Position numbers and translations under genes: made by a program. Below are positions 3,552-21,188 of a DNA stretch of 36,714 nucleotides, one piece after another. Source of the stretch: Pseudomonadota bacterium (GTDB lineage: Bacteria > Pseudomonadota > Alphaproteobacteria > GCA-2731375); NCBI GenBank assembly GCA_027623205.1, contig JAQBYC010000040.1, positions 1 through 36,714 of the forward strand, given 5' to 3'. The notes beneath the pieces are model-generated. The model was given only the letters and a program-made list of their open reading frames with translations. It had not been told where the DNA came from and did no database searches. Positions within the stretch are counted from its first letter, which is position 1; each line of letters opens with the position of its first letter.

Positions 3552-4364
3552 CTATAAGGGTGAGTTGGGGTCGAAATTGGGCGGGCGTTTCTCCAGATGC
3601 GAGGCCAGACCTTCCTTGGCTTCGGGGCCCTTGAAGCCAAGCATTTCCAAGGCCAAGGAGTTTTCGAATGTCGGCATCGCCATGCGGTACCAATTGTTCA
3701 GGGCCAGTTTGGTCCAGCGAATGGCGCTGGGCGCACCATTTGCCAGGGTTGCCGCCACCTCTTCCGACTTTGCCGTAAGCTCATCATCTTCGGTGCAGAG
3801 CGAGAACAGACCCATGCGTTCGGCCTCTTCGCCAAACACCGGTTCGTTGGTCAACAGATGGTATTTTGCCTTGGCCATGCCGGCCAGGATGACCCAGTTG
3901 ATGCAGGCGACATCACCGGCGGCAACACCCAAACGGACGTGACCATCCAGCACCCGGGCGGATTTGGCAATGATCGAAATATCCGCCAGCAATGCGGCCA
4001 CCAGGCCGGCACCGACCGCTACGCCATTGACCGCAGAGATTATGGGCTTGGAACAATTGATGATGTTGTAGACCAGGTCGCGGGCCTCTTTCCAGGCACC
4101 GACCGTGTCATTCCAGTTTTCGATGTTCTTCTTGATCATGCCAAAATCGCCACCGGAGGAGAACGCCTTGCCCTTGGCGGCCAGAATGACGCAGCTGATA
4201 TCGGGGTCCTCGTCGATATCCCGCCAAATATATGTCAATTGCCGGTGCCCAGCGGAGTCCAGTGAATTGTAGGTTTCCGGCTTGTTGAAAGTGATGCGCA
4301 ATACGCGCTCGCTTGGACTGTCATATTCAAAGGCGGGAAACTTTTCGGCATAACGTTCTAGCAT
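3552..4364 (-). CDS. Enoyl-CoA hydratase/isomerase (crotonase) family protein, atypical active site
   Basis: Crotonase-fold protein expected to act on a CoA thioester. The start at 4364 (MLERY) is chosen because a GAGGAG ribosome binding site sits just upstream; the frame itself continues to 4406. In the 270-aa product the oxyanion-hole segments are present: FSSGGD (68-73) and GVAVGAG (114-120). Where hydratases carry the PE-x-x-LG catalytic glutamate, this protein reads DGHVRLG (140-146), and the second glutamate site reads AKAKYHLL. Neither classical glutamate is therefore seen. I recall similar GH-x-RLGVAAGD proteins annotated as enoyl-CoA hydratases, but a hydratase role is not shown by the residues; isomerase, hydrolase or decarboxylase chemistry is possible. 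It is transcribed alone and divergently from the transporter operon. Confidence 0.85.
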   Translation of the reverse strand: MLERYAEKFPAFEYDSPSERVLRITFNKPETYNSLDSAGHRQLTYIWRDIDEDPDISCVILAAKGKAFSSGGDFGMIKKNIENWNDTVGAWKEARDLVYNIINCSKPIISAVNGVAVGAGLVAALLADISIIAKSARVLDGHVRLGVAAGDVACINWVILAGMAKAKYHLLTNEPVFGEEAERMGLFSLCTEDDELTAKSEEVAATLANGAPSAIRWTKLALNNWYRMAMPTFENSLALEMLGFKGPEAKEGLASHLEKRPPNFDPNSPL

Positions 4365-4609
4365 CGAGCACTCCTCCTCAGGGCCTGTGTCATTCATCGC
4401 GCCCACCTGCGGGCATCAATAGCTGCACGATAAACCCCGCTTGGCCGGTCGCGGTCAAGTCCCGGCGATGGCGGCGGCCTGTGGCAATTCGTCCCAATTA
4501 AGTGTATTAAGGCGGTTGTATGATAGGTTAAAGGTCTGTTAGAAGCCGCTGGCGTGGAGCATGGGGCGAAGACCCCGGCTGCGGCGAGGCACGTTTGGGG
4601 GGACTAAGT

Positions 4610-5602
4610 TTGACGCGGCTGTTAGAGATTGAAGATCTGCGGGTCCAGTTCTTCACGTCGGAAGGCACTGTCCGTGCCGTGGACGGCATCACTTATAATG
4701 TGGAAGCCGGCGAGACGGTGGCTATCGTGGGCGAATCCGGTTCAGGCAAATCGGTCTCCGCACTGGCCATCCTGCGGTTGATCCCCGATCCGCCGGGCCG
4801 GATCATGGGCGGCAAGATCAATTTCGCCGGCGAAGATTTATTGCAGCTTGATGAAGACGGTATCCGCCGGGTGCGCGGCCGCGATATCGGCATGGTGTTT
4901 CAGGAGCCCATGACCTCCCTAAATCCGGTGCTCAGTATCGGGCGGCAATTGACCGAAACCCTGGAACAACATCTGAATAGCGACAAGCAACAGTCCCAGA
5001 ACCGGGCCATCGAATTGCTGGGTCTGGTCGGAATTTCCGAGCCGGAACGCCGCCTGCGGCAATATCCCCATCACCTTTCGGGCGGCATGCGCCAGCGGGT
5101 AATGATCGCGATGGCACTCGCCTGTAATCCCAAGCTGATCATCGCCGACGAACCGACGACCGCGCTGGATGTGACCATTCAGGCCCAAATTCTGGAATTG
5201 ATGAAGGAACTGACCCGCCGCCTGGGCGTTGCCTTGATCATTATCACCCATAACCTCGGCGTCGTGGCGCGCTACGCCGATCGGGTCAATGTGATGTATG
5301 CCGGGCGCATCGTTGAAAGCGGGGTATCGGCGGATATCTATCACCGGCCCCGCCACCCCTATACCCGCGGCCTGTTGAATTCCGTCCCCCGCCTGGACCA
5401 GCCGCGGGGCTCGCGCTTGGAACCTATCATCGGTCACCCTCCCGATATGACGCAATTGGGCGAAGGCTGTGCCTTTCTGCCGCGCTGTCCGTTTGCCGTC
5501 GATCAATGCCAGAAAGAGATACCACCCTTGGAAACCGTCGGCCCCGACCATGCCTCGGCCTGCTGGCAGCGCGATCAACTGGACAGAGGGGCGGCGGCAT
5601 AA
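4610..5602 (+). CDS. Dipeptide/oligopeptide ABC transporter ATP-binding protein (DppD/OppD type)
   Basis: First ATPase of a peptide/nickel-type importer; hydrolyses ATP to drive uptake through the DppB/DppC-like permeases downstream. No ATG is available at the N-terminus. A TTG at 4610 preceded by a purine-rich GGGGGGA (4597-4603) best fits and gives [10 protein letters not shown]; the TTG at 4595 has no comparable ribosome site. Visible motifs: Walker A GESGSGKS (41-48), Q-loop [10 protein letters not shown], signature LSGGMRQRV, Walker [13 protein letters not shown] and switch His in ITHN. The C-terminal oligopeptide-transporter extension contains the Cys pattern [15 protein letters not shown] typical of DppD/OppD. 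The stop overlaps the next gene start (TAATG), consistent with translational coupling of the two ATPases. Confidence 0.93.
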
Positions 5603-6615
5603 TGGCCATGACGATGCCATCAACGCACCCAGCCGAGGCGGAAGCCCTGTTGCAGGTGCGCGACTTAAAGATGCATTTCCCGGTCACTGACGGGATCATG
5701 GTGCAGCGGACCATCGCGCAGGTGAAGGCGGTTGATGGCATCAGTTTTAACATCATGCCAGGCGAAACCCTGGGGTTGGTTGGTGAATCCGGGTGCGGCA
5801 AATCGACCACCGGGCGCTGCATCCTGCAATTGGAAAAACCGACAGGCGGCCAGATCCTATATCGCGGCGCGGACATGAATGGCATGAACCGGGCCGAGCT
5901 AACGGCCATGCGGCGCAAGATTCAGGTGATCTTTCAGGACCCCTTCAGTTCGCTGAATCCGCGCATGAAGGTGGGCGATATTATCAGCGAACCCCTGGCG
6001 GTGCATAACCTGATAAGTCACGCTGCCGACCGTGCTAAGCGGGTGGCGGAATTACTGACAGTTTGCGGCCTCAGCCCAAAAATGGCGGACCGCTATCCGC
6101 ACGAGATGTCGGGCGGCCAACGGCAACGCGTCGGCATCGCCCGGGCCCTGTCCATGGAGCCGGAGTTCATCGTTTGCGACGAAGCGGTCTCGGCCCTGGA
6201 CGTCTCGATCCAGGCCCAAGTGATCAATTTATTGGAAGATCTGCGCGAAGAATTTGATCTGACCTATTTGTTTATCGCCCACGATTTGAGCGTGGTGCGC
6301 CATCTGTGTCACCGGGTGGCGGTGATGTACCTGGGCAAAATCGTGGAATTGGCGGCCAGCGACGAATTGTTCGATAACCCGCTGCATCCCTATACCCGCG
6401 CCCTGTTGGACGCGGTGCCGGTACCCGATCCCACCGTCGAAGCGGGCCGGGAGCATCGCCTGGTGAAGGGCGAAGTGCCCAGTCCGATCAATCCACCGTC
6501 CGGATGCGTGTTCCATCCACGTTGTCCCATGGCTATCGACAGTTGTGCCGGTCCGGTGCCAGAATTGCGGCAATTGCGCCCGGGTCATTGGGTCGCCTGT
6601 GGCGAAGTTTCGTGA
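5602..6615 (+). CDS. Dipeptide/oligopeptide ABC transporter ATP-binding protein (DppF/OppF type)
   Basis: Second, non-identical ATPase that pairs with the preceding DppD-like subunit. The ATG at 5602 shares one base with the upstream stop; MAMTMPST gives 337 aa (ATG at 5608 is an alternative). Motifs: Walker [10 protein letters not shown] from residue 61, Q-loop [12 protein letters not shown], signature [15 protein letters not shown], Walker [13 protein letters not shown], switch FIAHD, and the Cys-containing tail [15 protein letters not shown]. In Walker B the usual DEP is DEA, a variant common in DppF/OppF-like proteins. An 81-base gap separates it from the binding-protein gene. Confidence 0.93.
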
Positions 6616-6696
6616 GTGCCCGCGTAGTATGAATTGCGCCTTGGTGGCGTATGAAATGTCGGTGGAAATCGCCGACGCAAAAGGGAGGTTATAACA

Positions 6697-8310
6697 ATGC
6701 GATTTAACGGCTTGAAAAAAGCCGCCATGGCTGGTCTTGGTGCGGCGATAGGTGCCGGCTTTGCCCTGACGGCGGCGGCGGAAACGCCTAAAATGGGTGG
6801 TATTCTGGACTTCGTGGTGGCCGGTCAAATTCCATCCTACGACGGGCATCTTGAAACCACATTTGCCATGATCCATCCGATCCGGCCATTTTACAGCCTG
6901 CTGATCCGGGTGAATCCAGACAACCCGTCTTCACCCACGGATTTCGTTTGCGACGTTTGTGAAGGCGCGGTGCCCAATCCGACCGATGACGGCAAGACCT
7001 ATGTCTTTAAAATCCGTACGGATGTGACGTTCCACAACGGCGCGCCCCTGTCTTCCAAGGACGTCAAGGCGAGCTTCGACAAGATTGCTTTCCCACCAGA
7101 GGGCATAGCCTCGGCGCGCAGGACTTTCTTCAAGATGGTGGACTCCATCACGGCCCCCGATGACACCACGGTGGTATTCAAGTTGAAATATGCCTCCGGC
7201 GCCTTCATTCCGGCGGTGGCAACCCCCTTCAACTTCATTTACTCCAAGGACGATCTGGACAAACACGGTTATCATTGGCATGAAAAAAATATCAATGGCA
7301 GCGGCGCCTTCATGTTCGTGCAGCATCAACCGGGCGCCTTCACTGAGGGCAAGCGGTATCCTGGCTATCATCTCAAAGGCAAGCCCTACCTGGATGGCTT
7401 CAAGGCTATCGAGGCGCCCAAGATGGCGATTCGCCTGCAGGCCATCCGCGGCGACCGCGCGGCGATTGAGTTCCGCGGCTTCCCACCCAAGGCCCGTGAC
7501 GATCTGGTCGCGGCGCTGGGTGACAAGATCACCGTACAGGAGAGCGACTGGAACTGCGGCCTGTACTTCACCCCCAACCATACCCGCAAACCATTTGACG
7601 ACGTGCGGGTGCGCAAGGCACTGACCCTGGCGGTTGATCGTTGGGGCGGATCAAAATATCTGTCCCAGATCGCCATCGTAAAGACAGTTGGTGGCATCGC
7701 CTTTCCAAACCATCCTCTGGCGGCAACGAAAGAAGAGTTGCAGCAACTGGCCGGTTACAGCACCGACATCAAGGCGAGCCGCGCCGAAGCCATGCGGTTG
7801 TTGAAGGAAGCCGGCGCCGAAGGCCTGGAATTCACCTTGCTGAACCGTGCCGTCGACCAACCCTACAAAGTGGTTGGCACCTGGTTGATCGACCAGTGGC
7901 GCCAGGTTGGCTTGAAAGTGAAACAGGACGCCAAACCGACCGGTCCATTCTTTGACAGTCTACGCAAATCGAAAGACTTCGACGTATCGATGGACTTCAA
8001 CTGCCAGTCCGTGGTCAACCCGCTGGTGGACGTGTCCAAGTTCCTGGGCAGCGCTGGCAACAATTATGGCCAGTACAAAGATCCCCTCATGGAAGATCTG
8101 TACGACAAAATGAACCGCGAAGGCGACCCGAAGAAGGTGCGTCAGTATATGCGTCAATATGAAAAGCAGGCCCTGGACGAACAGGCCCACATGGGTCTGA
8201 CCTTGTGGTGGTACAAGATCAACCCCCATCGCTCCTACGTGAAGGGTTGGAAGATCGCGCCGTCCCATTATCTGAACCAGTCATTGGATAACGTCTGGTT
8301 GGATAAGTAA
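6697..8310 (+). CDS. Periplasmic solute-binding protein, peptide/nickel family 5
   Basis: Extracytoplasmic receptor that captures the transported solute for the importer encoded around it. The start has a strong GGGAGG ribosome site. The 537-aa product begins with a Sec signal peptide (basic start, hydrophobic core about residues 10-25, cleavage likely near TAAA-E at 28-29). It has no lipobox Cys, so it should be soluble in the periplasm. The rest fits SBP_bac_5: an early GGILDFVV strand, the DDGKTYVFKIR and VTFHNGAPLSSKDVK segments, and the conserved DDVRVRKALTLAVDR region. Length is normal for the family. Ligand cannot be read from sequence; family members bind peptides, opines, sugars, nickel or other small solutes. 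Confidence 0.92.
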   Translation: MRFNGLKKAAMAGLGAAIGAGFALTAAAETPKMGGILDFVVAGQIPSYDGHLETTFAMIHPIRPFYSLLIRVNPDNPSSPTDFVCDVCEGAVPNPTDDGKTYVFKIRTDVTFHNGAPLSSKDVKASFDKIAFPPEGIASARRTFFKMVDSITAPDDTTVVFKLKYASGAFIPAVATPFNFIYSKDDLDKHGYHWHEKNINGSGAFMFVQHQPGAFTEGKRYPGYHLKGKPYLDGFKAIEAPKMAIRLQAIRGDRAAIEFRGFPPKARDDLVAALGDKITVQESDWNCGLYFTPNHTRKPFDDVRVRKALTLAVDRWGGSKYLSQIAIVKTVGGIAFPNHPLAATKEELQQLAGYSTDIKASRAEAMRLLKEAGAEGLEFTLLNRAVDQPYKVVGTWLIDQWRQVGLKVKQDAKPTGPFFDSLRKSKDFDVSMDFNCQSVVNPLVDVSKFLGSAGNNYGQYKDPLMEDLYDKMNREGDPKKVRQYMRQYEKQALDEQAHMGLTLWWYKINPHRSYVKGWKIAPSHYLNQSLDNVWLDK

Positions 8311-8334
8311 GACCGATACCTATTCGGTGCATCA

Positions 8335-8374
8335 GGCCCGCCGCCCCGCCATTCCTTTTGGTGGGCGGCGGGCC
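8335..8374 (+). terminator. Strong GC hairpin between binding-protein and permease genes (attenuator or mRNA-stabiliser)
   Basis: A perfect 12-bp inverted repeat, GGCCCGCCGCCC (8335-8346) with GGGCGGCGGGCC (8363-8374), extended inside the loop by CCA/TGG. No U-run follows, so it is not a textbook intrinsic terminator. Its place directly after the binding-protein gene suggests partial termination or 3'-end protection giving more receptor than permease. Confidence 0.65.
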
Positions 8375-8420
8375 GCATGCGGAATTTATCGTTAGAGCCA
8401 AATTTTAAGGCTGAACCTCT

Positions 8421-9392
8421 GTGTATAAATATATTGTCACCCGGCTGCTTCTTGCCATCCCAACCCTGTTGGGGGCCGCCCTTTTAGTCTTTATTCTGTT
8501 GCGCGCCGTCCCCGGCGATATCTGTGAGATACGATTGGGCGGCACGGGACTTTACGCTGACCCTAAACAGGTTGAGCTTTGCCGGGAAAACATCGGCCTC
8601 AACGATCCGCTTTACGTTCAGTTTGGCGATTTTGTCACCGGTTATCTGACCTTGGATCTGGGTCAGTCCATGTGGACGGGCCAGCCCATCGGCTACGAAA
8701 TCGGCCTGCGCTTTAAACTTTCCCTGCAGGTCGCGATCATGGCGACGTTGGTCGCCGTGCTGATTGCCATACCATTGGGCACCATATCGGCGATCAAACA
8801 GAACACCTGGATCGATTATTTGGTCCGAACCTTCTCCATCGCCGGCATTGCCATACCTTCATTCTGGTTGGGCATTATGATCATCCTGGGCCTGTTGATC
8901 GGCACCCAGGCTTGGTTCGGCGAAGCGTGGATGCCGCCGATCGAATACGTTTCGCCGTTCGAGGATCCCTTGGGCAATCTTTCGCAGTTGATCTGGCCGG
9001 CGGTAGCGACCGGTTACCGCTATTCCGCCGTGGCCACCCGCATGACCCGATCAGCCTTATTGGAAGTCTTGCGCGAGGATTATGTCCGCACGGCGCGCGC
9101 CAAGGGCCTGTTGGAAAAAATTGTCATCAACCGGCACGCGCTGAAAAACGCCATGCTGCCCGTGGTTACCGTTATCACCCTGGAATTCGCATTCCTGATG
9201 GGCGGTCTTGTCGTCACGGAACAGGTTTTCAACCTGAACGGACTGGGCCGATTATTCGTTGATTCCGTCCTCAATCACGACTTCACCCTGACCCAGCAAC
9301 TGGTCATGTTGGTGGTGTTTATTTTTGTGATGACCAATCTGGTCACCGATATATTCTATGCGTGGCTTGATCCACGCATCCGGTACAGCTAG
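8421..9392 (+). CDS. ABC transporter permease (DppB/OppB type)
   Basis: Inner-membrane permease subunit, one half of the translocation pore. Translation probably starts at GTG 8421 with a weak AAGG about ten bases upstream; product 323 aa. The N-terminal YIVTRLLLAIPTLLGAALLVFILLR-like region is split here only for description: a TM helix near residues 8-28, then a periplasmic loop with the RAVPGD motif typical of DppB, and further TM helices around 97-120, 135-160 and 275-310. The cytoplasmic EAA loop (about YVRTARAKGL) contacts the ATPases. The C-terminal LDPRIRYS ending is characteristic. Nine bases separate it from the next permease. Confidence 0.93.
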   Translation: MYKYIVTRLLLAIPTLLGAALLVFILLRAVPGDICEIRLGGTGLYADPKQVELCRENIGLNDPLYVQFGDFVTGYLTLDLGQSMWTGQPIGYEIGLRFKLSLQVAIMATLVAVLIAIPLGTISAIKQNTWIDYLVRTFSIAGIAIPSFWLGIMIILGLLIGTQAWFGEAWMPPIEYVSPFEDPLGNLSQLIWPAVATGYRYSAVATRMTRSALLEVLREDYVRTARAKGLLEKIVINRHALKNAMLPVVTVITLEFAFLMGGLVVTEQVFNLNGLGRLFVDSVLNHDFTLTQQLVMLVVFIFVMTNLVTDIFYAWLDPRIRYS

Positions 9393-9401
9393 GAGGCTGG
9401 G

Positions 9402-10301
9402 ATGACCGTATCTCAAATGCCCGGCCCCGGTATGCTGGATGATGTGGCCGTCCAGCGTTCCTGGCACGGGGCCGCCTGGAAACTGATCCGCCGCCAGCCG
9501 TTGGGCGCGGCCGGTTTGGCCGTGGTGCTGGTCATGATCTTCATGGCAGTCTTCGCCGAGGCAATTACCCCGTTTGAACCCGAGGCGAACAGCTTCGAAT
9601 TCATGCTGGCGCCGCCCGACGGCCAGTTCTGGCTGGGCACGGACCAGTTCGGCCGGGATATATGGACCCGCATAATCTTCGGTGCCCGCACGGCCCTTTA
9701 TGTGGGCTTCGTCGCTGCCTTCATCGGTGCCGGCGCCGGCTTGGTGCTGGGCGTTGGTTCGGCCTATTTCGGCGGCCTGTTCGATTTGTTATTCCAGCGG
9801 GTCATGGACGTCTTCATGGCCTTTCCGCTGATCATTCTGGCCCTGGCCGTGGTCTCGATCCTGGGCGCGGGCACCTCCAATGTGATCATCGCCATTACCA
9901 TTCCTTTCATTCCCCATTGCGCCAGGGTCGTCCGGTCTTCAGCCCTGGCGATCCGCGAAATACCCTACGTGGATGCCGCCCGCGCCATGGGTTTCAGCCA
10001 TCGCCGTATTATCCTGCGGCATATGGTGCCGAATGTCATGGCGCCGTTCCTGATCATGCTAACCACCTTTGTCGGCCAGGCTATCCTGTTGGAGGCCTCG
10101 CTCTCCTACCTGGGCCTTGGCGTACAGGAACCAACCCCCGCCTGGGGTCTGATGTTGCAAGGGGGGGCGGAGGAATTCGCCGAAAGCGCGCCATGGGTGG
10201 CCATCTTTCCGGGTCTGGCCATTACCCTGGCGGTGTTCGCCTTCAATCTATTCGGCGACGCCTTGCGCGACGTTCTCGACCCCAAGTTACGCGCGCGCTG
10301 A
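9402..10301 (+). CDS. ABC transporter permease (DppC/OppC type)
   Basis: Second permease subunit of the importer. ATG at 9402 follows an AGGAGG site. The 299-aa protein shows the DppC pattern: an N-terminal cytoplasmic stretch, first TM helix near 34-52, the conserved segment PDGQFWLGTDQFGRDIWTR just after it, then five further hydrophobic helices. The EAA-loop region is YVDAARAMGFSHRRI, and the C-terminus (GDALRDVLDPKL) is typical. It completes a DppDF-A-B-C-like set in one operon. Confidence 0.94.
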   Translation: MTVSQMPGPGMLDDVAVQRSWHGAAWKLIRRQPLGAAGLAVVLVMIFMAVFAEAITPFEPEANSFEFMLAPPDGQFWLGTDQFGRDIWTRIIFGARTALYVGFVAAFIGAGAGLVLGVGSAYFGGLFDLLFQRVMDVFMAFPLIILALAVVSILGAGTSNVIIAITIPFIPHCARVVRSSALAIREIPYVDAARAMGFSHRRIILRHMVPNVMAPFLIMLTTFVGQAILLEASLSYLGLGVQEPTPAWGLMLQGGAEEFAESAPWVAIFPGLAITLAVFAFNLFGDALRDVLDPKLRAR

Positions 10302-10353: not shown

Positions 10354-11085
10354 ATGCCTGAAATCGCCAGCCGGATCATCCTGGGCATGTTGACGCCGTC
10401 ATCGAATACGGTGCTGGAGCCAACGACGACCGCCATGCTGGCGGACCTGGGAGAAGTGACCGCCCATTTCAGCCGCTTCAAGGTGACGGAAATTTCCCTG
10501 TCCCAGCGGGGCCTGGCGCAATTCGATCATGACCGTTTTCTCGCCGCCGCCGATCTGCTGGCCGATGCCAATTGTCAAGCCATCGCCTGGAACGGCACCT
10601 CCGCCGGGTGGCTGGGCTTCGACAATGACGAAACATTATGCGCCCGCATAACCGAGCGTACCGGCGCGCCCGCCACCACCTCCATCCTGGCCAACAACGA
10701 TCTGTTTCGCCGTCATGGGGTCAAAAAATTCGGCCTGGTTACCCCCTACACGGACGATGTGCAGGCCCGCATATTGGCTAATTACCGGGCCGCCGGATTT
10801 GACTGTGTGGCGGAACGGCATTTGGGCATCAGCGACAATTTCTCCTTCTCGGAAATCAGCCAGGATCAGGTCGAGAAAATGTGCCGGGAGGTCGCGGCGG
10901 AGGGGGCGGAGGCGATCTCCGTCATTTGCACCAACATGCGCGGCGCGGCCCTGGCGGGACCACTGGAGGCGGAACTGGGCGTCACCATTTACGACAGTAT
11001 TGCCGTCGTTGTCCTTCGCGCCTTGGAACTGGCCGGCGTCGACGCCGCCCGCCTGCACGGCTGGGGCCGGATTTTTCACGATTAA
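10354..11085 (+). CDS. Asp/Glu racemase superfamily protein (maleate isomerase / arylmalonate decarboxylase-like, single Cys)
   Basis: 243-aa protein of the Asp/Glu/hydantoin racemase fold, closest in pattern to maleate cis-trans isomerase and arylmalonate decarboxylase. Seen: TPSSNTVLEP near residues 14-23 with the conserved Asn18, GTS at 81-83, TPY at 130-132, and ICTNMRG with Cys192. Racemases and maleate isomerases use two cysteines, one in each half. Here the first site is Gly81 and only Cys192 remains, the arrangement known for arylmalonate decarboxylase (Gly74/Cys188, with Thr-Ser following and a Tyr in the TPY region). A decarboxylase- or hydrolase-like reaction on a dicarboxylate is thus plausible but unproven. 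It lies 52 bases after the permease, so it probably processes a solute brought in by the importer. Confidence 0.8.
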   Translation: MPEIASRIILGMLTPSSNTVLEPTTTAMLADLGEVTAHFSRFKVTEISLSQRGLAQFDHDRFLAAADLLADANCQAIAWNGTSAGWLGFDNDETLCARITERTGAPATTSILANNDLFRRHGVKKFGLVTPYTDDVQARILANYRAAGFDCVAERHLGISDNFSFSEISQDQVEKMCREVAAEGAEAISVICTNMRGAALAGPLEAELGVTIYDSIAVVVLRALELAGVDAARLHGWGRIFHD

Positions 11086-11192
11086 TACCTACCGTACGGC
11101 AATGAGCGCCATTTGATCCAGCGCAAGGACGCCAATGAGAATACCGAGTAGGATTTTCAGGACGTCAAGGTTGCGTAAGGAGCGAAACAGCC

Positions 11193-11900
11193 ATGAGTTA
11201 TGATGAACCTGGTTGCGCCTATTGCCCGGACACCGTGAGGGTCTGCCGCGTGGGGGAAAGCGATGCCCGAGGGCCGGGTTACTGCCCGACAAAAGTAATG
11301 GCCGACGAACTGCAGGCAGCGGTCGCCCTTTATGACGATCCGGAAAACCGCCGGGTGGCACAGGAGTCGGGCCGGATCGAGGCCGAGGGTTATTGCCAAT
11401 GGACCCGCGTCGAGGAGATTTGCCAGTTCGCCAAGAAGATGGGCTACACCAAGATCGGCATCGCCACCTGCATCAGCTTCGTCGATCTGGCGCGTACCCT
11501 GAGCGGGATTCTCGAAAGTCATGGCTTCGAGGTTGCTTCGGTCGCCTGCAAGAATGGCAGCGTGCCGAAGGAGGACATGGGTCTAAAGGACGAGGAGAAG
11601 ATCCGCCCGGGCAACTACGAGGCCATGTGCAACCCGATCAGCCAGGCCCAATTGCTGAACCAATCCGGTTGCCAGTTCAATATCGTACTTGGCCTTTGCG
11701 TCGGGCACGACAGCCTGTTCTTCAAGTATTCCGAAGGTCTGGTGACGGTGCTGGTAGCCAAGGACCGGGTGCTGGCGCATAACCCGATCGGCGCCCTGTA
11801 TTTGGCTGATACCTACTACAGCCGGGTCTGGGGTCCTGACCGACCCGAGAAGCCGCCGAAAATTCCCGCCGCCGGCCGCCGCGGCCAGGCTGGAGACTAG
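11193..11900 (+). CDS. Cys-rich DUF1847-type protein, putative metal-binding, unknown function
   Basis: 235-aa cytoplasmic protein with no signal or membrane segment, preceded by an AAGGAG ribosome site. It holds eleven cysteines (8, 11, 18, 31, 68, 77, 93, 119, 146, 160, 169). The N-terminal GCAYC...C...YC cluster looks like a zinc or Fe-S site. ATCISFVDLAR (91-101), MCNPISQAQLLN (145-156) and GLCVGHDSLFFK (167-178) resemble conserved blocks of DUF1847, a family I know only as putative metal-binding. The last ~20 residues are Pro/Arg/Ala-rich and look non-conserved. It is the last gene of the transporter operon, so a role with the racemase-fold enzyme is an inference. A MITE-like element starts immediately after its TAG. 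Confidence 0.8.
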   Translation: MSYDEPGCAYCPDTVRVCRVGESDARGPGYCPTKVMADELQAAVALYDDPENRRVAQESGRIEAEGYCQWTRVEEICQFAKKMGYTKIGIATCISFVDLARTLSGILESHGFEVASVACKNGSVPKEDMGLKDEEKIRPGNYEAMCNPISQAQLLNQSGCQFNIVLGLCVGHDSLFFKYSEGLVTVLVAKDRVLAHNPIGALYLADTYYSRVWGPDRPEKPPKIPAAGRRGQAGD

Positions 11901-12086: not shown

Positions 12087-14744
12087 CTATCCGGGAGCCT
12101 CGCCGAGGGATTTCGAGGCAATCTCAAAGACATCCGGCGATAAGCCGTCAACTGCCAGAATTCGCCGCAACGCCGCCTGCATCAGAGCCTGCCGGCCCTC
12201 GTCATAACGGCGCCAGCGGCCAAGCTGGGTTGCCAGGCGGGCCGCGATCTGCGGATTGATCGGATCCAGTTGCAGGACCCGATCGGCCAGAAAGCGGTAA
12301 CCGCTGCCGTCGGCCGCATGAAAGCGATAGGGATTGCCGCTGCAAAAGGCCGAGATCAAGGCGCGGACCTTATTCGGTTGCAGCATGGAGAATACCGGGT
12401 GATCCATCAGTTCCACGACGCGTGCCAGGGTATCGGGACGGGCGGACGCGGCCTGTAGCGAGAGCCATTTATCGATCACCACCGCATCGTCCTTAAAGCG
12501 GTCATGGAAAACATCCAGCGCCACGGCCCGCTCATCATCCTCCCGTGCATCATCCTCCCGGTCAATTAGGGCCGCAAGGGCGGCCATGCGGTCGGTCATG
12601 TTGTCGGCATCACGGAACTGCCGGCCGGCCAAAGCCCGGCAACCATCGTCGTCCAGGATTGAGAGATAGGACAGTGCCAAATTCTTCAAGGCCCGGCGTC
12701 CGGCGGAGCCTGCATCGGGGCTGTAAGGCGCGTTGGAGCGGTTGGCGTCATAAATGGCCTGCAAGTCCTCGCGCAGGGCCCGCGCGATGGCGGCGCGTAA
12801 AGCCTCGCGGGCCTGGTGGATCGCCACCGGGTCGGCCCTGTCCATCTGTTCGGCTAGATATTGTTCACTGGGAAGCTGACAAGCCAGAGTGACAAAGGCC
12901 GGATCCAAGGCCGGGTCGGTTAGCGTCTGGCGCAACGCGGCAATGAACCCGTCATCGATAGGCGCCTCCCGGCCAGCCCCGTACGCGGCGGCCATGGCGC
13001 CCAACAGGGTGGCGGCATACTGCTGTCCGGCTTCCCAGCGATTGAATGGGTCGCTGTCATGGGCCATGAGGAAGGCTTGCGTGCCCTGGCTTAATTCCTG
13101 ACGCACCCGAATGGGGGCCGAAAAGCCCCGGTTGATGGAGGGTACCGGCGCAGCCGCCACGCCCTCAAACCGCACCACCATATCAAGGCTGCTCAGGTCC
13201 ACGACCTTTGTGGTCGTACCCGCCGTATCCAGGGGCAGGTCATCTCCAGCCCCGTCCAACAGGCCGACGGCCACGGGGATACGCATGGCCTGTTTGGCGA
13301 CCCCGTCAGGGGTGGCCGGCAACTTCTGGCTTAGGCTAAGTTCATAAGTCTGCGTGGCTTGATCATAGTTGCCGGAAACCTGGATCTCCGGTGTCCCGGC
13401 CTGACTGTACCACAACTTGAACTGCTCCAGGTTGGCGCCATTGGCGTCCGCCATGGCCGCAAGAAAATCATCACAGGTCACCGCCTGGCCGTCATGGCGC
13501 TGAAAATAGAGATCCATGCCCTTTCGGAAACCGCTCTCCCCGAGCAAGGTGTGGTACATGCCGATAACCTCGGCGCCCTTTTCGTATACAGTGGCGGTAT
13601 AGAAATTGTTGATCTCAATATAGCTGGCCGGGCGGACTGGATGGGCCAGCGGGCTTGCGTCCTCGGGGAATTGAGCGGCGCGCAGGGCGCGGACATCCTT
13701 GATCCGCTGAACCGGTGCCGAACGCATATCGGCCGAGAATTGCTGGTCGCGAAAGACCGTCAGGCCCTCTTTCAGGCTCAATTGAAACCAGTCCCGGCAG
13801 GTCACCCGGTTACCGGTCCAATTGTGAAAATATTCGTGGGCCACGATGGCTTCGATGTTCGCATAGTCGTCGTCCGTGGCGGTTTCGGAATTGGCCAGAA
13901 CGTATTTCGCGTTGAATACGTTCAGGCTCTTATTCTCCATGGCGCCCATGTTGAAATCGTTGATGGCGACGATGTTGAACAGATCCAGATCGTATTCCAG
14001 ACCGTATTTTTCCTCGTCCCAGCGCATGGAACGCCGCAGTGCCTCCATGGCGTAGCCGCAGCGGTCCTCGTTACCGGGATCGGTATAAATACGCAAAGTG
14101 ACCAAGCGTCCCGATTGGGTGGTGAAGTGGTCTTCCAGCCACGACAGATTGCCCGCCACCAGGGCAAACAGATATGATGGTTTTGGAAACGGATCATCCC
14201 AGACCGCGAAATGGCGGCCATCCGGCAAATCCCCGGCCGCCGCCAGATTGCCGTTGGATAGCAGGACGGGACAAGCCGCCTTTTCCGCCCGCACGGTCAC
14301 CCGGTAGGTGGTCATGACGTCGGGGCGGTCCGGAAAATACGTGATGCGGCGAAAGCCTTCGGCCTCGCACTGGGTGCAAAAAATGCCCCCGGACTGATAC
14401 AACCCCTCCAACTTGGTATTGGCCGCCGGCGCGATCCTGGTCACCACTTCCAATTCGAACCCATCCGGCGCTTCGGCCAGGCTCAACCCGGCCTCGTCCA
14501 CGGCAAAGTCTTCGCCCGCCAGAACCCGCCCGTCCAGGGCCAGGGATATCAGCTCGATCCCCTCGCCGTCCAGGCGCAGGGGCGCCGCGGCATTGCCATG
14601 CTCCGGATTGCGCCGCAACGACATCCGCGCCAGCACCCGTGTGTTTTCAGGTTCCAGATCGAATTCCAGAGTAACTTTTTCGACCAGAAAGGCTGGCGGT
14701 AGATAGTCACTTAGATGGATGGTCTTTGGCGTGTCATTTGTCAT
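12087..14744 (-). CDS. pepN: Aminopeptidase N (M1 zinc metallopeptidase)
   Basis: Cytoplasmic zinc aminopeptidase that removes N-terminal residues from peptides and completes protein turnover. The 885-aa product has the bacterial PepN length. It shows the exopeptidase motif GAMEN (267-271), the zinc site HEYFH (303-307) with the third ligand Glu326 in LKEGLTVFRDQ, and a long C-terminal helical domain. The N-terminal domain includes the substrate-binding CTQCEAEGFRRITYFPDRPDV segment characteristic of E. coli-type PepN. Start ATG 14744 has an AGAGG just upstream. Its stop lies four bases from the MITE-like element. Release of amino acids from imported peptides could link it to the upstream importer, but it is on the other strand. 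Confidence 0.95.
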   Translation of the reverse strand: MTNDTPKTIHLSDYLPPAFLVEKVTLEFDLEPENTRVLARMSLRRNPEHGNAAAPLRLDGEGIELISLALDGRVLAGEDFAVDEAGLSLAEAPDGFELEVVTRIAPAANTKLEGLYQSGGIFCTQCEAEGFRRITYFPDRPDVMTTYRVTVRAEKAACPVLLSNGNLAAAGDLPDGRHFAVWDDPFPKPSYLFALVAGNLSWLEDHFTTQSGRLVTLRIYTDPGNEDRCGYAMEALRRSMRWDEEKYGLEYDLDLFNIVAINDFNMGAMENKSLNVFNAKYVLANSETATDDDYANIEAIVAHEYFHNWTGNRVTCRDWFQLSLKEGLTVFRDQQFSADMRSAPVQRIKDVRALRAAQFPEDASPLAHPVRPASYIEINNFYTATVYEKGAEVIGMYHTLLGESGFRKGMDLYFQRHDGQAVTCDDFLAAMADANGANLEQFKLWYSQAGTPEIQVSGNYDQATQTYELSLSQKLPATPDGVAKQAMRIPVAVGLLDGAGDDLPLDTAGTTTKVVDLSSLDMVVRFEGVAAAPVPSINRGFSAPIRVRQELSQGTQAFLMAHDSDPFNRWEAGQQYAATLLGAMAAAYGAGREAPIDDGFIAALRQTLTDPALDPAFVTLACQLPSEQYLAEQMDRADPVAIHQAREALRAAIARALREDLQAIYDANRSNAPYSPDAGSAGRRALKNLALSYLSILDDDGCRALAGRQFRDADNMTDRMAALAALIDREDDAREDDERAVALDVFHDRFKDDAVVIDKWLSLQAASARPDTLARVVELMDHPVFSMLQPNKVRALISAFCSGNPYRFHAADGSGYRFLADRVLQLDPINPQIAARLATQLGRWRRYDEGRQALMQAALRRILAVDGLSPDVFEIASKSLGEAPG

Positions 14745-14865: not shown

Positions 14866-16023
14866 TTACCAACCCATTTGCCGGGCGGCCAGATCCTTCA
14901 TGATTTCGACCGAACCACCGCCGATGGCCATGACCTTGGTTTCGCGGTAGATGCGTTCCACCTTGCTCCCCCGCATATAGCCGGCGCCGCCGAATATCTG
15001 CATGGCCTCGTTGGCGCAGAATTCCATCGTGTCCGTGGCGACCACCTTCACCATAGCCGCGTCCGCGGCGATCTGTTCGCCTTGCATATCGCGCCAGGTC
15101 AGATCTTCCAGATAGGCCTGGCCCGAGTTGATCCGCATGGCCATGTCCACCAGCTTGTGCCGGATTACCTGGTTTGCCACCAGTGGCTTGCCAAAGGTAT
15201 GACGCTCCCGGCCATAGGCGGTCGCCTCGTCCAGGCACACCTGAGCAAAAGACAAGGCATTGGCGGCCAGCATCAGGCGCTCATAGTTGAAATTATGCAT
15301 GATCTGCCTGAAACCCTGGTTCTCTTCGCCGATTAGATTCGCCGCCGGCACGCGGCAATCTTCGAAATACAGGGTTGCCGTATCGGAACACCACCAACCC
15401 ATTTTCTTCAGGGGCGTGCGGGAGAAACCGGGCGTCCCGCCCTCGACCAGGATCAGTGATATGCCGCCCAGGCCCTCGCCGCCCGTGCGCACGGCCACGG
15501 CGACGAAATCCGCCCGCATACCGGATGTGATGAAGGTTTTCTGGCCGTTGATGATGTAATCATCACCATCCCGCCGGGCCGTGGTGCGCAGCCGGGCCAC
15601 GTCGGAGCCGCCGGTAGGTTCGGTCACTCCCAGGGCGGAAATCTTTTCGCCCGACAGCACGCCCGGCAGCACCCGCGCCTTTAATTCGTCGGAGCCGAAT
15701 TGCGCGATATGCGGGGTGCCGATGGTATGGCTCATCAAACCGGCGGCGAGGCCGCCGCTGCCGCAACGGCAAAGTTCCTGATAGGCGACGATGGAGAAAA
15801 ACCGGTCGCAATCGACACCGCCATATTCCTCCGGGTAGCAGACCTGCAACAGGCCGACCTCAGCCGCCTTTTTATAGATGTCGCGGGGAAATTCACCGGC
15901 TTCGTCCCATTCGGTGACGTAGGGCTCGATCTCCCGTTCGACGAAGCGGCGGATAGAGGCGCGAAAGACCTCGTGCGCCTCGCTGTAATAGGGGCTGCGC
16001 CGTTGGTTGGGGATATTGTTCAT
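14866..16023 (-). CDS. Acyl-CoA dehydrogenase (second of tandem paralogues)
   Basis: FAD enzyme that introduces an alpha,beta double bond into an acyl-CoA. The 385-aa product has the full family architecture: N-terminal helices, the FAD/substrate motif VTEPTGGSDVA (133-143), ITSGMRAD (166-172), RHTFGKPL, and a C-terminal IFGGAGYMRG...RIYRETKVMAIGGGS. The MCAD-type catalytic Glu in the C-terminal segment is replaced by Gly (IGGGS). A Glu at 248 (NYERL) occupies the position used in isovaleryl- and long-chain acyl-CoA dehydrogenases, so the enzyme is probably active on a branched substrate. ATG 16023 has an AGGAG site. The gene begins nine bases after its near-twin ends and is the last gene of the cluster. 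Confidence 0.92.
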   Translation of the reverse strand: MNNIPNQRRSPYYSEAHEVFRASIRRFVEREIEPYVTEWDEAGEFPRDIYKKAAEVGLLQVCYPEEYGGVDCDRFFSIVAYQELCRCGSGGLAAGLMSHTIGTPHIAQFGSDELKARVLPGVLSGEKISALGVTEPTGGSDVARLRTTARRDGDDYIINGQKTFITSGMRADFVAVAVRTGGEGLGGISLILVEGGTPGFSRTPLKKMGWWCSDTATLYFEDCRVPAANLIGEENQGFRQIMHNFNYERLMLAANALSFAQVCLDEATAYGRERHTFGKPLVANQVIRHKLVDMAMRINSGQAYLEDLTWRDMQGEQIAADAAMVKVVATDTMEFCANEAMQIFGGAGYMRGSKVERIYRETKVMAIGGGSVEIMKDLAARQMGW

Positions 16024-16032
16024 GGCGTGCTC

Positions 16033-17190
16033 CTACAGGGCCATTTGCCGGGCGGCCAGGTCCTTCATGATTTCAGCCGAGCCGCCGCCAATGGCCATGA
16101 CCTTGGTCTCGCGATAGATACGCTCGACCTTGCCGCCGCGAAGATAGCCGGCCCCGCCTAGAATTTGCATCGCCTCGTTGGCGCAAAATTCCATGGTCGC
16201 CGTGGCGTGCACCTTCAACATACAGACATCGGCCACCACCCGGTCGCCCTGCATATCCCGCCAGGTCAGAGTTTCCAGATAGGCCACGCCGGCATTGATC
16301 CGCATCGCCATGTCCACCAGCTTGTGACGGATCACCTGGTTTTCGATCAGCGCCTTGCCAAAGGTATGGCGCGCTCTGGCGTAGGCAATGGCTTCATCCA
16401 GGCAGGTTTGCGCATATCCCAGGGCGCCCGCCGACATGCCCAGACGTTCATAGTTGAAGTTATGCATGATCGCCTTGAAGCCCTGGTTTTCTTCGCCGAT
16501 CAGATTGGCCACGGGTACCCGCACGTCATCGAAATACAAGGCTGCGGTGTCGGACGCCCACCAACCCATCTTTTTCAGTTTGCTGCGCGCAAAACCGGGC
16601 CGGTCCCGCTCGATCAGCAGCAGCGAGATACCGCCCAGTCCCTCGCCGCCCGTGCGTACGGCCACGGTATAAAAATCGGCTCGAAACCCGGACGTAATGA
16701 ACATTTTCCGACCATTGACGATGTAATCGTCGCCGTCGCGCCTGGCCGTGGTTTTCAGCCGCGCCACATCCGAGCCCCCCGACGGTTCGGTGACCGCCAG
16801 GGCGGCAATCTTTTCGCCCGCCAGCACCTGCGGCAGCACCCGCGCCTTCAATTCATCGGAACCGAACTGCGCCAAATGGGGGGTGCCGATGGTATGGCTC
16901 ATCAACGAGGCATTGACGCCGCCGCTGCCCGCGCGGGTCAGTTCCTGGGAGGCGATGATGTTGTAGAAACGGTCGCAGGCGATGCCGCCATATTCTTCCG
17001 GATAGCCCAATTGCAGCAGGCCGACTTCGGCCGCTTTTTTATACAGCGCGCGGGGGAATTCCTCCGCCTCGTCCCAGGCAGCGGCGTTCGGCTCGATCTC
17101 TTTCTCGACAAAGCGGCGCATGGTATCGCGGAAGGCTGCATGCTCTTCGGTATAGAAGGGACTACGCCGTTGATTGGAAATGCTATTCAC
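16033..17190 (-). CDS. Acyl-CoA dehydrogenase (first of tandem paralogues)
   Basis: Same length (385 aa) as the following gene and alignable without gaps, including the N-terminal QRRSP, the VTEPSGGSDVA FAD segment, the NYERL catalytic-base position (Glu248) and the IGGGS ending. The pair is a tandem duplication that has since diverged. Differences cluster in residues 30-100, in 180-205 and around 250-260, near the substrate pocket, so chain or branch specificity may differ. Translation starts at GTG 17190 with GGGAGG six bases upstream. It follows the biotin carboxylase gene by 35 bases and is probably in the same transcript. Confidence 0.92.
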   Translation of the reverse strand: MNSISNQRRSPFYTEEHAAFRDTMRRFVEKEIEPNAAAWDEAEEFPRALYKKAAEVGLLQLGYPEEYGGIACDRFYNIIASQELTRAGSGGVNASLMSHTIGTPHLAQFGSDELKARVLPQVLAGEKIAALAVTEPSGGSDVARLKTTARRDGDDYIVNGRKMFITSGFRADFYTVAVRTGGEGLGGISLLLIERDRPGFARSKLKKMGWWASDTAALYFDDVRVPVANLIGEENQGFKAIMHNFNYERLGMSAGALGYAQTCLDEAIAYARARHTFGKALIENQVIRHKLVDMAMRINAGVAYLETLTWRDMQGDRVVADVCMLKVHATATMEFCANEAMQILGGAGYLRGGKVERIYRETKVMAIGGGSAEIMKDLAARQMAL

Positions 17191-17225
17191 TGATGACCTC
17201 CCGCGCGGCTATATGTACCGCGTCA

Positions 17226-19181
17226 CTAATCCGCGGCTTCGGCATCCACTGCGCCAACCACGGCCAGCATCTGTCTTGGATCAACCTGATCACCTTCCAC
17301 GACGCCGATTTCCTGGACCACGCCGTCAGCCGGGGCCTTGATCTCGTGTTCCATTTTCATGGCCTCCAGGATCACCAGGATCTGGCCTTTTACCACCGCC
17401 TCGCCCAGCCTGGCCCGGACCGCGACGATCCGCCCGGCCATGGGGGCAATCAGGCGGCCGTCGCCGTCCTTTTCCTTGGCGGCCGCCAATTCCGGCGTAA
17501 ATTCGAAGAAACGGGTACTAATCCCAGCCAAATCCAGGTGCAGATCGTTGCCCTCGAAGGCGAAGCTGGCCCATTGCAGCACGCCTGCGCAGCGGAAACG
17601 CACCCGCCCGGCCTCAACGACAAGCAATTCCAGGTCGACCGTTTCATCCGCGCCCAAAACCACCTGGTAGCCGGCGTTGCTGGGCGCCACGCGGCACAGG
17701 CATTGTTCTTCGCCGAAACGCAGATCGATGCCAACGACGATGGGCGAGGCCGAGCGCCAGCCAACCTGATCATGGGCGCTGTGCCGGTACAACAGAACAG
17801 CCGCCAGGGCCCGAGCCGCCGCATCCGGCCGCGGCCGTTGCAGGTCGGCAAAATGCTCGGCAATAAAGGCCGTCGTGGCCGCGCCCTCGGCAAACGCGGG
17901 ATGGCGGAGCACATCCAGGAGGAAGCCGCGATTGTTCGGCAAGCCAAACAAGGCGGTATCTTCCAGGCCACGCAACAGGCGGCGCCGTGCCTCCTCCCGA
18001 TTGCGGCCGTGGGCGATGACCTTGGCTACCATGGGGTCGTAGAAGGGCGAGATTTCCTGACCTTCGACAATGCCGGTGTCCACGCGCACGTCGGGCGAAG
18101 GCCGCCAGGCCACCACCGTGCCGGTCTGAGGCAGGAAATCCGCGTACGGGTCCTCGGCATAAAGGCGCACTTCGATGGCGTGACCGTGGAATTTGATGGC
18201 GTCCTGGGCCAGGGGCAAGGCTTCACCCGCGGCTACATCCAGTTGCCAGGCGACCAGATCAAGACCAGTGATCATTTCGGTCACGGGATGCTCCACCTGC
18301 AGGCGGGTATTCATCTCCAGAAAATAGAAGCTGCCGTCCGCACTTAGCAAAAATTCCACGGTGCCCGCGCCCACATAATCGATAGCCTGGGCCGCGGCCA
18401 CCGCCGCCGCCCCCATGGCGGCGCGAAGCGAAGCGTTGACCGCCGGTGACGGCGCTTCTTCCACCACTTTTTGATGGCGCCGCTGGATCGAACAATCCCG
18501 CTCGCCCAGATGCACACAGTTGCCATGATGATCAGCAAAGACTTGAATTTCCACATGGCGCGGTTTGATCACCGCCTTTTCCAGGATCAATTCGCCCGAG
18601 CCAAAGGCATTCTCCGCCTCGGACCGGGCCCCGGATATGGCCGCCAGCAGACCACCTGGACCTGACACCAACCGCATGCCGCGTCCGCCGCCGCCCGCCG
18701 CCGCCTTGACCATCAGGGGAAACCCGATTTTTGCGCCTTCCTCCTGCAACAGCCCATCATCCTGACCCGCACCGCTATATCCGGGCACGCAGGGAACTTC
18801 CGCCTTCGCCATGCGCAGTTTGGCCAGGCGCTTGTTACCCATCAGATCGATGGCCTGGGGGGACGGTCCGATGAAGGTCAGCCCGGCATCAGCGCAAGCC
18901 CGGGCAAAATCCGCATTCTCGGCCAGGAAACCATAGCCGGGATGCACCGCGTCAGCCCCTGACTGGGCGGCTGCCGCCAAGATGGCCCCTACGTTCAGGT
19001 AGGATTCGGCCACGGGTGCGGGACCGATACAGACCGCCTGATCAGCCATTTGTACATGCGGGGCAGCAGCGTCGGGCGCTGAATAAACCGCAACCGTGCG
19101 ATAGCCCATAGCGTGGGCTGTCCGCATGATGCGGCAGGCAATTTCGCCACGATTGGCGATCAGGAGCTTGCTGAAAGCCAT
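17226..19181 (-). CDS. Acyl-CoA carboxylase biotin-containing alpha subunit (AtuF/LiuD-like)
   Basis: Biotin carboxylase plus biotin carrier subunit; carboxylates its own biotin with ATP and bicarbonate for transfer to an enoyl-CoA by the beta subunit encoded upstream. The 651-aa protein contains an N-terminal biotin carboxylase (RGEIACRIMRT near 11-22), the ATP-grasp lysine and glycine loop (Lys159, GGGGRGM 163-169), and EMNTRLQVEHPVTE, the catalytic core motif. A linker domain leads to a C-terminal biotinyl domain with EAMKMEH, biotinyl Lys609. Length and domain order match 3-methylcrotonyl- and geranyl-CoA carboxylase alpha subunits. Gene order favours the geranyl/citronellyl (atu) type. 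AGGA precedes the ATG at 19181. Confidence 0.92.
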   Translation of the reverse strand: MAFSKLLIANRGEIACRIMRTAHAMGYRTVAVYSAPDAAAPHVQMADQAVCIGPAPVAESYLNVGAILAAAAQSGADAVHPGYGFLAENADFARACADAGLTFIGPSPQAIDLMGNKRLAKLRMAKAEVPCVPGYSGAGQDDGLLQEEGAKIGFPLMVKAAAGGGGRGMRLVSGPGGLLAAISGARSEAENAFGSGELILEKAVIKPRHVEIQVFADHHGNCVHLGERDCSIQRRHQKVVEEAPSPAVNASLRAAMGAAAVAAAQAIDYVGAGTVEFLLSADGSFYFLEMNTRLQVEHPVTEMITGLDLVAWQLDVAAGEALPLAQDAIKFHGHAIEVRLYAEDPYADFLPQTGTVVAWRPSPDVRVDTGIVEGQEISPFYDPMVAKVIAHGRNREEARRRLLRGLEDTALFGLPNNRGFLLDVLRHPAFAEGAATTAFIAEHFADLQRPRPDAAARALAAVLLYRHSAHDQVGWRSASPIVVGIDLRFGEEQCLCRVAPSNAGYQVVLGADETVDLELLVVEAGRVRFRCAGVLQWASFAFEGNDLHLDLAGISTRFFEFTPELAAAKEKDGDGRLIAPMAGRIVAVRARLGEAVVKGQILVILEAMKMEHEIKAPADGVVQEIGVVEGDQVDPRQMLAVVGAVDAEAAD

Positions 19182-19201
19182 GCTTTTCCTATCCCTTCGA
19201 T

Positions 19202-20005
19202 CTAATCAATGGCCCAGGCGGGCCTGCGTTTGTTCAGGAAGGCATCGACACCTTCCTTTGCGGCGTCCGAGCGCATGGCGCCGGCGAATTGCCGTGCGGC
19301 GGCTTCAATCACTTCGCCGCGCGGTCGGGTCAGGCCCAGGCGCATGATGAATTTATTGCCGGCGACGCCTTCCGCCGAACAGCCCTGTACCTGCGCCAAC
19401 ACTTCGGAAATTTTGGCCTCCATGGCGTCCGCGTCCGCTACCAGATAGTGCACCAGGCCAAGCGCGACGGCATCCGCCGCCTGAAACCGCGCACCGGTGG
19501 CGGCCAGCATGCGCGCCCTGGTCAAGCCGATGCGTTCCACCACCAGGGGTAAAACCTGACTGGCAATCAGGCCCAGGCGGGCCTCGGGTAGGCCAAACAG
19601 TGCGCCGTCCACGGCGATAGCCACATCGGAAGCGCAGGTGAAGCCCATGCCGCCACCCAACGAAGCGCCTTCAATTCCGGCGATCACCGCCTGGGGCGCC
19701 TGATTGATGCAATCCAGCATCTGACCGTAGTTGCGGTTGGAGGCGACTACGGGGTCTTCCGCGTGCGCTGCCTGCGTTTGGGAAAAGCCCTTGATATCGC
19801 CTCCCGCGCTGAAATTGCCGCCCGCCCCGCGCAACACGATGGCGCGCAGGGTACGGTCGTCGCGCACCGCGTTCATAACCGCCGTAATCTCACCCACCAT
19901 GTCGGCATTCAGGGCGTTCTTGCGCGCCGGCCGGTTAAAGGTCAGATGCAACACCCAATCTTCGCGCCGCAATGCGATGGCGGTGGTTTCAGGCAGGGCG
20001 CTCAT
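19202..20005 (-). CDS. Enoyl-CoA hydratase family protein (AtuE/LiuC-like)
   Basis: Crotonase expected to hydrate the carboxylated unsaturated CoA ester made by the neighbouring carboxylase (isohexenylglutaconyl-CoA or 3-methylglutaconyl-CoA). In the 267-aa product the oxyanion-hole segments FSAGGD (65-70) and GASLGGGMG (113-121) are intact. The first catalytic glutamate is present in LPEARLG (Glu141). The second glutamate position (RIGLTRARML) carries no Glu. The start ATG overlaps the stop of the upstream acyl-CoA dehydrogenase by three bases (ATGA type), so translation is coupled. Located between the dehydrogenase and the biotin carboxylase, as atuE is in Pseudomonas. Confidence 0.88.
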   Translation of the reverse strand: MSALPETTAIALRREDWVLHLTFNRPARKNALNADMVGEITAVMNAVRDDRTLRAIVLRGAGGNFSAGGDIKGFSQTQAAHAEDPVVASNRNYGQMLDCINQAPQAVIAGIEGASLGGGMGFTCASDVAIAVDGALFGLPEARLGLIASQVLPLVVERIGLTRARMLAATGARFQAADAVALGLVHYLVADADAMEAKISEVLAQVQGCSAEGVAGNKFIMRLGLTRPRGEVIEAAARQFAGAMRSDAAKEGVDAFLNKRRPAWAID

Positions 20006-21162: not shown

Positions 21163-21188
21163 GGCCAATACTCCGCCTTTGCTATGAC

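Follow-up and report, generated by a model that had tools for sequence, protein, structure and literature searches.

The described systems closest to the enzyme considered here are arylmalonate decarboxylase (AMDase; EC 4.1.1.76, PF17645), maleate cis-trans isomerase (EC 5.2.1.1), EutA of ectoine utilisation (TIGR02990) and the hydantoin and allantoin racemases (PF01177). AMDase removes a carboxylate and its Cys188 protonates the enediolate, while the first cysteine of maleate isomerase must add to C2 of maleate (PMC12576825). EutA is a predicted racemase that acts on 5-hydroxyectoine prior to ring hydrolysis (PMC5924519), and EcL-DER of E. coli is a one-directional enzyme with an unbalanced Thr83/Cys197 pair (PMC12661438). 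Hydantoin and allantoin racemases have two facing catalytic cysteines.

Results

Organization of the locus

The window, i.e., the whole stretch of DNA that was analyzed, comprised 36,714 bp and represented one entire contig of a 228-contig alphaproteobacterial assembly, the nearest named relatives of which were MAGs designated 'Rhodospirillaceae' and 'Alphaproteobacteria'. In agreement with the preliminary description, a complete family 5 (peptide/opine/nickel) ABC importer at 4613-10301, consisting of an SBP_bac_5 binding protein, two permeases and two oligo_HPY ATPases, all encoded on the plus strand, was noted upstream of a racemase-fold enzyme, which was followed by a DUF1847 protein (Table 1). 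The binding protein gave distant matches to peptide-type binding proteins of solved structure, and since no importer component scored at an equivalog cut-off, a ligand was not assigned. From the coordinates, the last permease gene and the enzyme gene are separated by 52 bp and the enzyme and DUF1847 genes by 107 bp. Values of dN/dS for the enzyme, DUF1847 and binding protein genes, calculated against four congeners, were between 0.04 and 0.13, which indicates that these genes are real and under purifying selection. Scans of the locus for promoters and terminators revealed no excess over shuffled sequences. The importer, enzyme and DUF1847 genes probably form an operon.

Table 1. Features of the importer-enzyme-DUF1847 locus and its borders in the window.
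Feature	Coordinates	Strand	Evidence or remarks
Crotonase-family protein (PRK07327), divergent from importer	3552..4406	-	Syntenic in genus; no demonstrated part in system
ABC importer ATPase, DppD/OppD type	4613..5602	+	ABC_tran and oligo_HPY; NCBIfam OppD/DppD scores below equivalog cut-offs
ABC importer ATPase, DppF/OppF type	5596..6615	+	Domain and NCBIfam profile matches
Family 5 solute-binding protein, N-terminal signal-like segment	6697..8310	+	SBP_bac_5, 179.9 bits
Permease, DppB/GsiC type	8421..9392	+	Domain and NCBIfam profile matches
Permease, DppC/GsiD type	9402..10301	+	Domain and NCBIfam profile matches
Single-Cys racemase-fold enzyme, 243 aa	10354..11085	+	First site G81-T82-S83, second site C192; N18, Y132, N162 conserved
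DUF1847 protein, 235 aa, 11 Cys	11193..11900	+	PF08901; N-terminal CX2CX6CX12C block and core
Aminopeptidase N-like gene (PepN), conserved right-hand border	12087..14744	-	Annotated by eye; synteny

Two other regions of the window, both on the minus strand, were read by eye. A DDE (IS701-like) transposase gene at 27280-28752 appeared intact, and a row of genes at 14866-23695 for three acyl-CoA dehydrogenases, biotin carboxylase, enoyl-CoA hydratase, carboxyltransferase and SDR, partly syntenic in relatives, resembled a cluster for degradation of leucine/isovalerate or acyclic terpenes.

Sequence and predicted fold of the enzyme

Comparison with Pfam gave a score of 72.8 bits for Amdase (PF17645, cut-off 25.9) and an additional match to Asp_Glu_race (PF01177). 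Among 385 alphaproteobacterial genomes, matches to the enzyme occurred at identities of at least 51% and then not again until 35% or less. The subfamily so delimited is widespread and its members are annotated merely as 'aspartate/glutamate racemase family protein'.

Residues of the active site were placed from alignments. The sequence is W79-N-G81-T82-S83 at the first site and I191-C192-T-N at the second; G81, T82 and C192 were without variation in alignments of 18 and of 43 subfamily sequences, and N18, Y132 and N162 were likewise invariant across the 43. Alignment with solved structures paired G81 with Gly74 of AMDase and with the first cysteine of maleate isomerase, and C192 with Cys188 and Cys194 of these enzymes, respectively. 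The preliminary description had noted the retention of Cys192 and the Gly-Thr-Ser at the first cysteine site, and its single-cysteine reading withstood closer inspection in that none of the other cysteines of the enzyme (C74, C96, C151 and C177) aligned with the first catalytic site. C192 is, as placed by alignment, the sole cysteine predicted at the catalytic positions. In the wider family, first/second site combinations of Cys/Cys, Cys/Gly, Leu/Gly and Gly/Cys were all present, and the G...C state is therefore a property of the subfamily rather than of the family as a whole.

An AlphaFold2 model of the enzyme (pLDDT 92) was most similar to maleate isomerase structures 2xed and 4fq5 (Z 30.0 and 29.8, rmsd 1.8-1.9 over 234-235 residues), with AMDase (3ixl, Z 29.0) effectively level and hydantoin/allantoin racemase far below (Z 16-18). 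As modelled, with Z of 12-30 to structures of the superfamily, the enzyme has the two-domain pseudosymmetric fold of the Asp/Glu racemase superfamily. It is a member of a discrete, uncharacterised single-cysteine subfamily in the maleate isomerase/AMDase branch of that superfamily.

Comparison with characterized enzymes

The likeness to AMDase pointed out in the preliminary description holds for the site and not for membership. Thus, the enzyme shares with AMDase the fold, the Gly-Thr-Ser of the first site, of which T82 and S83 match the dioxyanion loop, and the lone cysteine of the second site, with G74, T75, S76, Y126 and C188 of AMDase corresponding to G81, T82, S83, Y132 and C192, and certain AMDase genes are flanked, as is the enzyme gene, by peptide-type ABC importers (PMC4996985). 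In contrast, overall identity is about 22%, the score with NF052327 was 73.5 bits against an equivalog cut-off of 225, and several residues by which AMDase is defined (PMC4996985) differ: P15, G189 and V156 are replaced by S16 (placed by motif pattern), T193 and N162, and motifs LMGTSLSF and ILLSCGGL by WNGTSAGW and ISVICTNM. Identity with AMDase was therefore rejected. The part of the enzyme corresponding to the hydrophobic pocket of AMDase (L40, V43 and Y48) lies in an N-terminal region that did not align by sequence. Gene neighbours differ as well, those of AMDase being of mandelate-racemase type and those of the subfamily dihydropyrimidinases.

Maleate isomerase, the best fold match, has N18, Y132, N162 and C192 as well as H38 and R41 in common with the enzyme, and its Asn/Tyr/Asn carboxylate shell aligned with the invariant N18, Y132 and N162; this identity was rejected because the first, nucleophilic cysteine is an invariant glycine (G81) in 43 members. 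EutA was the nearest NCBIfam model by bits, with a score of 73.9 that is below its equivalog cut-off of 318, and no eut genes were found in the window. Hydantoin/allantoin racemase resembles the enzyme in superfamily, fold and hydantoinase-linked genes but differs in its two catalytic cysteines, the first of which the enzyme lacks.

Gene neighbourhoods of the subfamily

Outside the family to which the window belongs, where members are 50-71% identical to the window enzyme, the subfamily was evidently linked to ring hydrolases of dihydropyrimidinase type and to importers. In a class sample of 16 such neighbourhoods, drawn evenly from alphaproteobacteria, 11 contained a dihydropyrimidinase; the three representatives scored all exceeded the PRK13404 subfamily cut-off. 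A wider scan, rich in Burkholderiales, covered the best 80 loci, 75 of them non-family. Of these 75, 53 (from 18 genera or unnamed lineages) carried a PRK13404-type dihydropyrimidinase on the same strand and no more than 200 bp away, and a further 9 carried one within 10 kb. Chance linkage is negligible because approximately 0.2 such genes per genome and 20 kb in about 4 Mb give an expectation of roughly 0.1%. These findings lend independent support to the guess of a hydantoin-like compound in the preliminary description. A literature search that covered few subscription journals found no paper that joined dihydropyrimidinase with this type of enzyme; earlier notice of the linkage may exist.

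Other frequent neighbours were amidases, ATZ/TRZ-type amidohydrolases, GntR regulators and importers, and EutA operons likewise hold an importer, a GntR-type regulator and a ring-opening hydrolase (PMC5924519). A hydantoin-racemase-like gene was near the enzyme in 26 of the best 80 loci. Importers beside non-family enzymes were of unrelated types (NMT1/TauT-like ABC, PotABCD-like ABC, TRAP and MFS, assigned partly by eye). On annotated plasmids of S. meliloti, A. brasilense and M. nodulans, importers, amidases or amidohydrolases accompanied the enzyme, and the M. nodulans record included a dihydropyrimidinase among these neighbours. Two loci carried a second racemase-fold paralogue in tandem, directly downstream of the enzyme (L060 9827-10534, approximately 35% identical, and L227 8750-9520).

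The locus in the family

The enzyme was present in 11 of 15 genomes of the order, and the importer or its permease end was beside it on the same contig in 10 of these 11; in the eleventh (G011) a 3.5 kb contig terminates at the enzyme, whose flank lies beyond. MAG contigs stop inside several loci, and little weight attaches to absence where a genome is incomplete. The genes form a syntenic block, UvrD-PrmA-ECH-importer-enzyme-PepN, within which two allelic lineages of the importer were distinguished, with binding proteins either 79-82% or 70% identical to that of the window, that did not follow the phylogeny of enzyme and PepN. Thus, genome G006 was nearest to the window by enzyme (90%) and PepN (87%), yet its binding protein was just 70% identical; in addition, G006 and G012 have the importer in inverted orientation. 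Persistence of the importer-enzyme pair through replacement of the importer argues for a link between them. The divergent alleles (approximately 70% and 80%) are represented by L013, L016, L017, L180 and L182 as opposed to L014, L181 and L189, and two relatives have an MFS gene between the last permease and the enzyme (L014 9936-11159, L017 13845-15080).

None of 13 importer relatives from other families had a subfamily enzyme nearby, and the importer was rejected on this ground as a dedicated partner of the enzyme everywhere. Some of these relatives were near MmgE/PrpD or acyl-CoA dehydrogenase genes, with no clear pattern.

A dihydropyrimidinase was not adjacent to the enzyme in the genus of the window. 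The homologue found elsewhere in the window genome (G000:C80) is unsupported as a partner, relatives of it being present in each of the 15 order genomes, even those four that lack the enzyme. In G011, of a sister genus, a PRK13404 dihydropyrimidinase and a different Dpp-type importer lie about 6 kb apart, away from the enzyme (L184, L185). In a quick tree with many weak branches, the family enzymes grouped with that of Nisaea sp. IN45, the closest non-family relative among the best 80 loci (71%), which retains a dihydropyrimidinase gene after that of the enzyme. Most simply, these results would suggest a history in which the locus lost its dihydropyrimidinase partner and gained the importer and DUF1847.

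The DUF1847 protein

The protein encoded after the enzyme matched PF08901 over its full length (217.3 bits, gathering threshold 25) and contains, as previously claimed, exactly 11 cysteines (8, 11, 18, 31, 68, 77, 93, 119, 146, 160 and 169). It is a long form of a family without known function. Short homologues lack the added N-terminal CX2CX6CX12C block and keep C93, C119, C146 and C169 together with a GLC-GH motif. A model of the protein was poor (pLDDT 49) and gave no fold match at E <= 0.001; matches to one half of aspartate racemase, to Dph2 and to others were uninterpretable. Three of the four conserved cysteines follow beta strands in this low-confidence model, and a thiol or metal site would suit them.

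DUF1847 was rare, with matches in 8 of 385 alphaproteobacteria and 3 of 388 genomes of a phylum sample (the window genome counted in both), while Methanocaldococcus and Methanosarcina, included as controls, were positive. It adjoined the enzyme in 6 of the 11 family genomes, was elsewhere in the genome in one and was not found in four. Outside the family, DUF1847 was near the enzyme in none of 91 loci (16 from the class sample and 75 from the best 80, with a few strains possibly counted twice). The failure to find it in the four enzyme-bearing genomes, along with DUF1847 genes that adjoin no enzyme in G012, G138 and G067, led to its rejection as a fixed partner. Matches were also noted on four anaerobe plasmids (Clostridioides, Phocaeicola, Selenomonas and Peptoclostridium). 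On the Clostridioides difficile plasmid (L228 5004-5639) the gene is between a nitroreductase-family gene and pyrF-carA-carB, and in G138 (L019 9611-11819) it is by genes for VWA and MoxR-type ATPase proteins that resemble CoxE/CoxD of molybdenum hydroxylase maturation.

The combination of importer, enzyme and DUF1847 is a local arrangement, found in one marine alphaproteobacterial family. The three-part pathway of the preliminary description is, as an arrangement of genes, limited to this family, where pairing of importer and enzyme recurs, given the results for DUF1847 and importer relatives elsewhere; DUF1847 beside the enzyme was found in none of the 91 loci from outside the family.

Discussion

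Against the established background of its sequence family, G-T-S...C site, fold and subfamily linkage to ring hydrolases and importers, the enzyme is tentatively best explained as a single-cysteine carbon-acid enzyme with an acid that originates from cyclic ureides or imides as its substrate. This explanation draws on the precedents of AMDase, maleate isomerase, EcL-DER and EutA for single-cysteine enediolate chemistry, together with the dihydropyrimidinase linkage. No cofactor would be needed, and the substrate would be a small acid from a compound of the hydantoin or dihydropyrimidine type. One carboxyl(ate) group may be held by N18, Y132 and N162 and the T82/S83 loop, while C192 would protonate (or deprotonate) a planar enediolate. 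The outcome would be decarboxylation or one-way isomerisation, the former being slightly favoured, rather than two-base racemisation. In the window organism, the adjacent family 5 importer would take up the substrate or its conjugate, and DUF1847 may be an accessory thiol or metal protein that is gained or lost separately. Evidence against this explanation includes the lack of an adjacent dihydropyrimidinase in the genus and the lack of the enzyme near importer relatives elsewhere.

The dihydropyrimidinase linkage would also suit a one-way epimerase or racemase, in which C192 and a weak partner, T82 or S83, invert a stereocentre in a hydantoin or carbamoyl amino acid and thereby open both forms to a stereospecific hydantoinase. 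The unbalanced Thr83/Cys197 pair of EcL-DER (PMC12661438) provides a precedent for such an enzyme, and the nearest NCBIfam model, although below cut-off, is the predicted racemase EutA (PMC5924519). However, the residue predicted to face C192 is an invariant glycine rather than threonine, the carboxylate shell is like that of maleate isomerase, and a second racemase would be redundant in the 26 loci with a hydantoin-racemase-like gene; inversion of this kind seems unlikely. Less probable still is a cis-trans isomerase, or a hydrolytic or lyase variant, for which C192 would be the sole nucleophile toward an unsaturated acid resembling a dicarboxylate, such as one from maleimide-type imides. Maleate isomerase is indeed the top fold match and has S16, S17, N18, H38, R41, Y132 and N162 in common with the enzyme, and amidase and cyclic amidohydrolase neighbours suit an imide route, but the cysteine that adds to maleate (PMC12576825) is glycine in every aligned member of the subfamily.

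A different kind of doubt concerns the neighbourhood. Importer, enzyme and DUF1847 may be functionally unrelated and adjacent only through shared synteny in one family, as would be consistent with the syntenic nature of the entire block, the importer relatives elsewhere that lack the enzyme and the coming and going of DUF1847. In opposition to this possibility, which is doubtful though to be taken seriously, adjacency of importer and enzyme outlasted both the swap to a divergent importer allele in G006 and inversion in G006 and G012, and in many other lineages the enzyme is found with importers of different types. The degrees of confidence in the alternatives overlap, because this one concerns the neighbourhood and not the reaction of the enzyme.

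Hydantoinases and dihydropyrimidinases serve as industrial catalysts and break down pyrimidines and drugs, and they adjoin a conserved single-cysteine partner without an assigned reaction. Where any acid had been a candidate substrate, the linkage narrows the search to acids of cyclic ureides and imides. Subfamily members are available in cultivable strains, including Azospirillum brasilense Sp7, Sinorhizobium meliloti HM006 and Cupriavidus metallidurans CH34. Single-cysteine members also offer a test of how the fold switches between racemase, decarboxylase and isomerase. At its boldest, and rather improbably, the enzyme may represent a new class, i.e., a cofactor-free single-cysteine decarboxylase or isomerase for an unrecognised step in catabolism of cyclic ureides or imides, that one marine family would have re-wired to a peptide-type importer and a cysteine-rich DUF1847 accessory protein.
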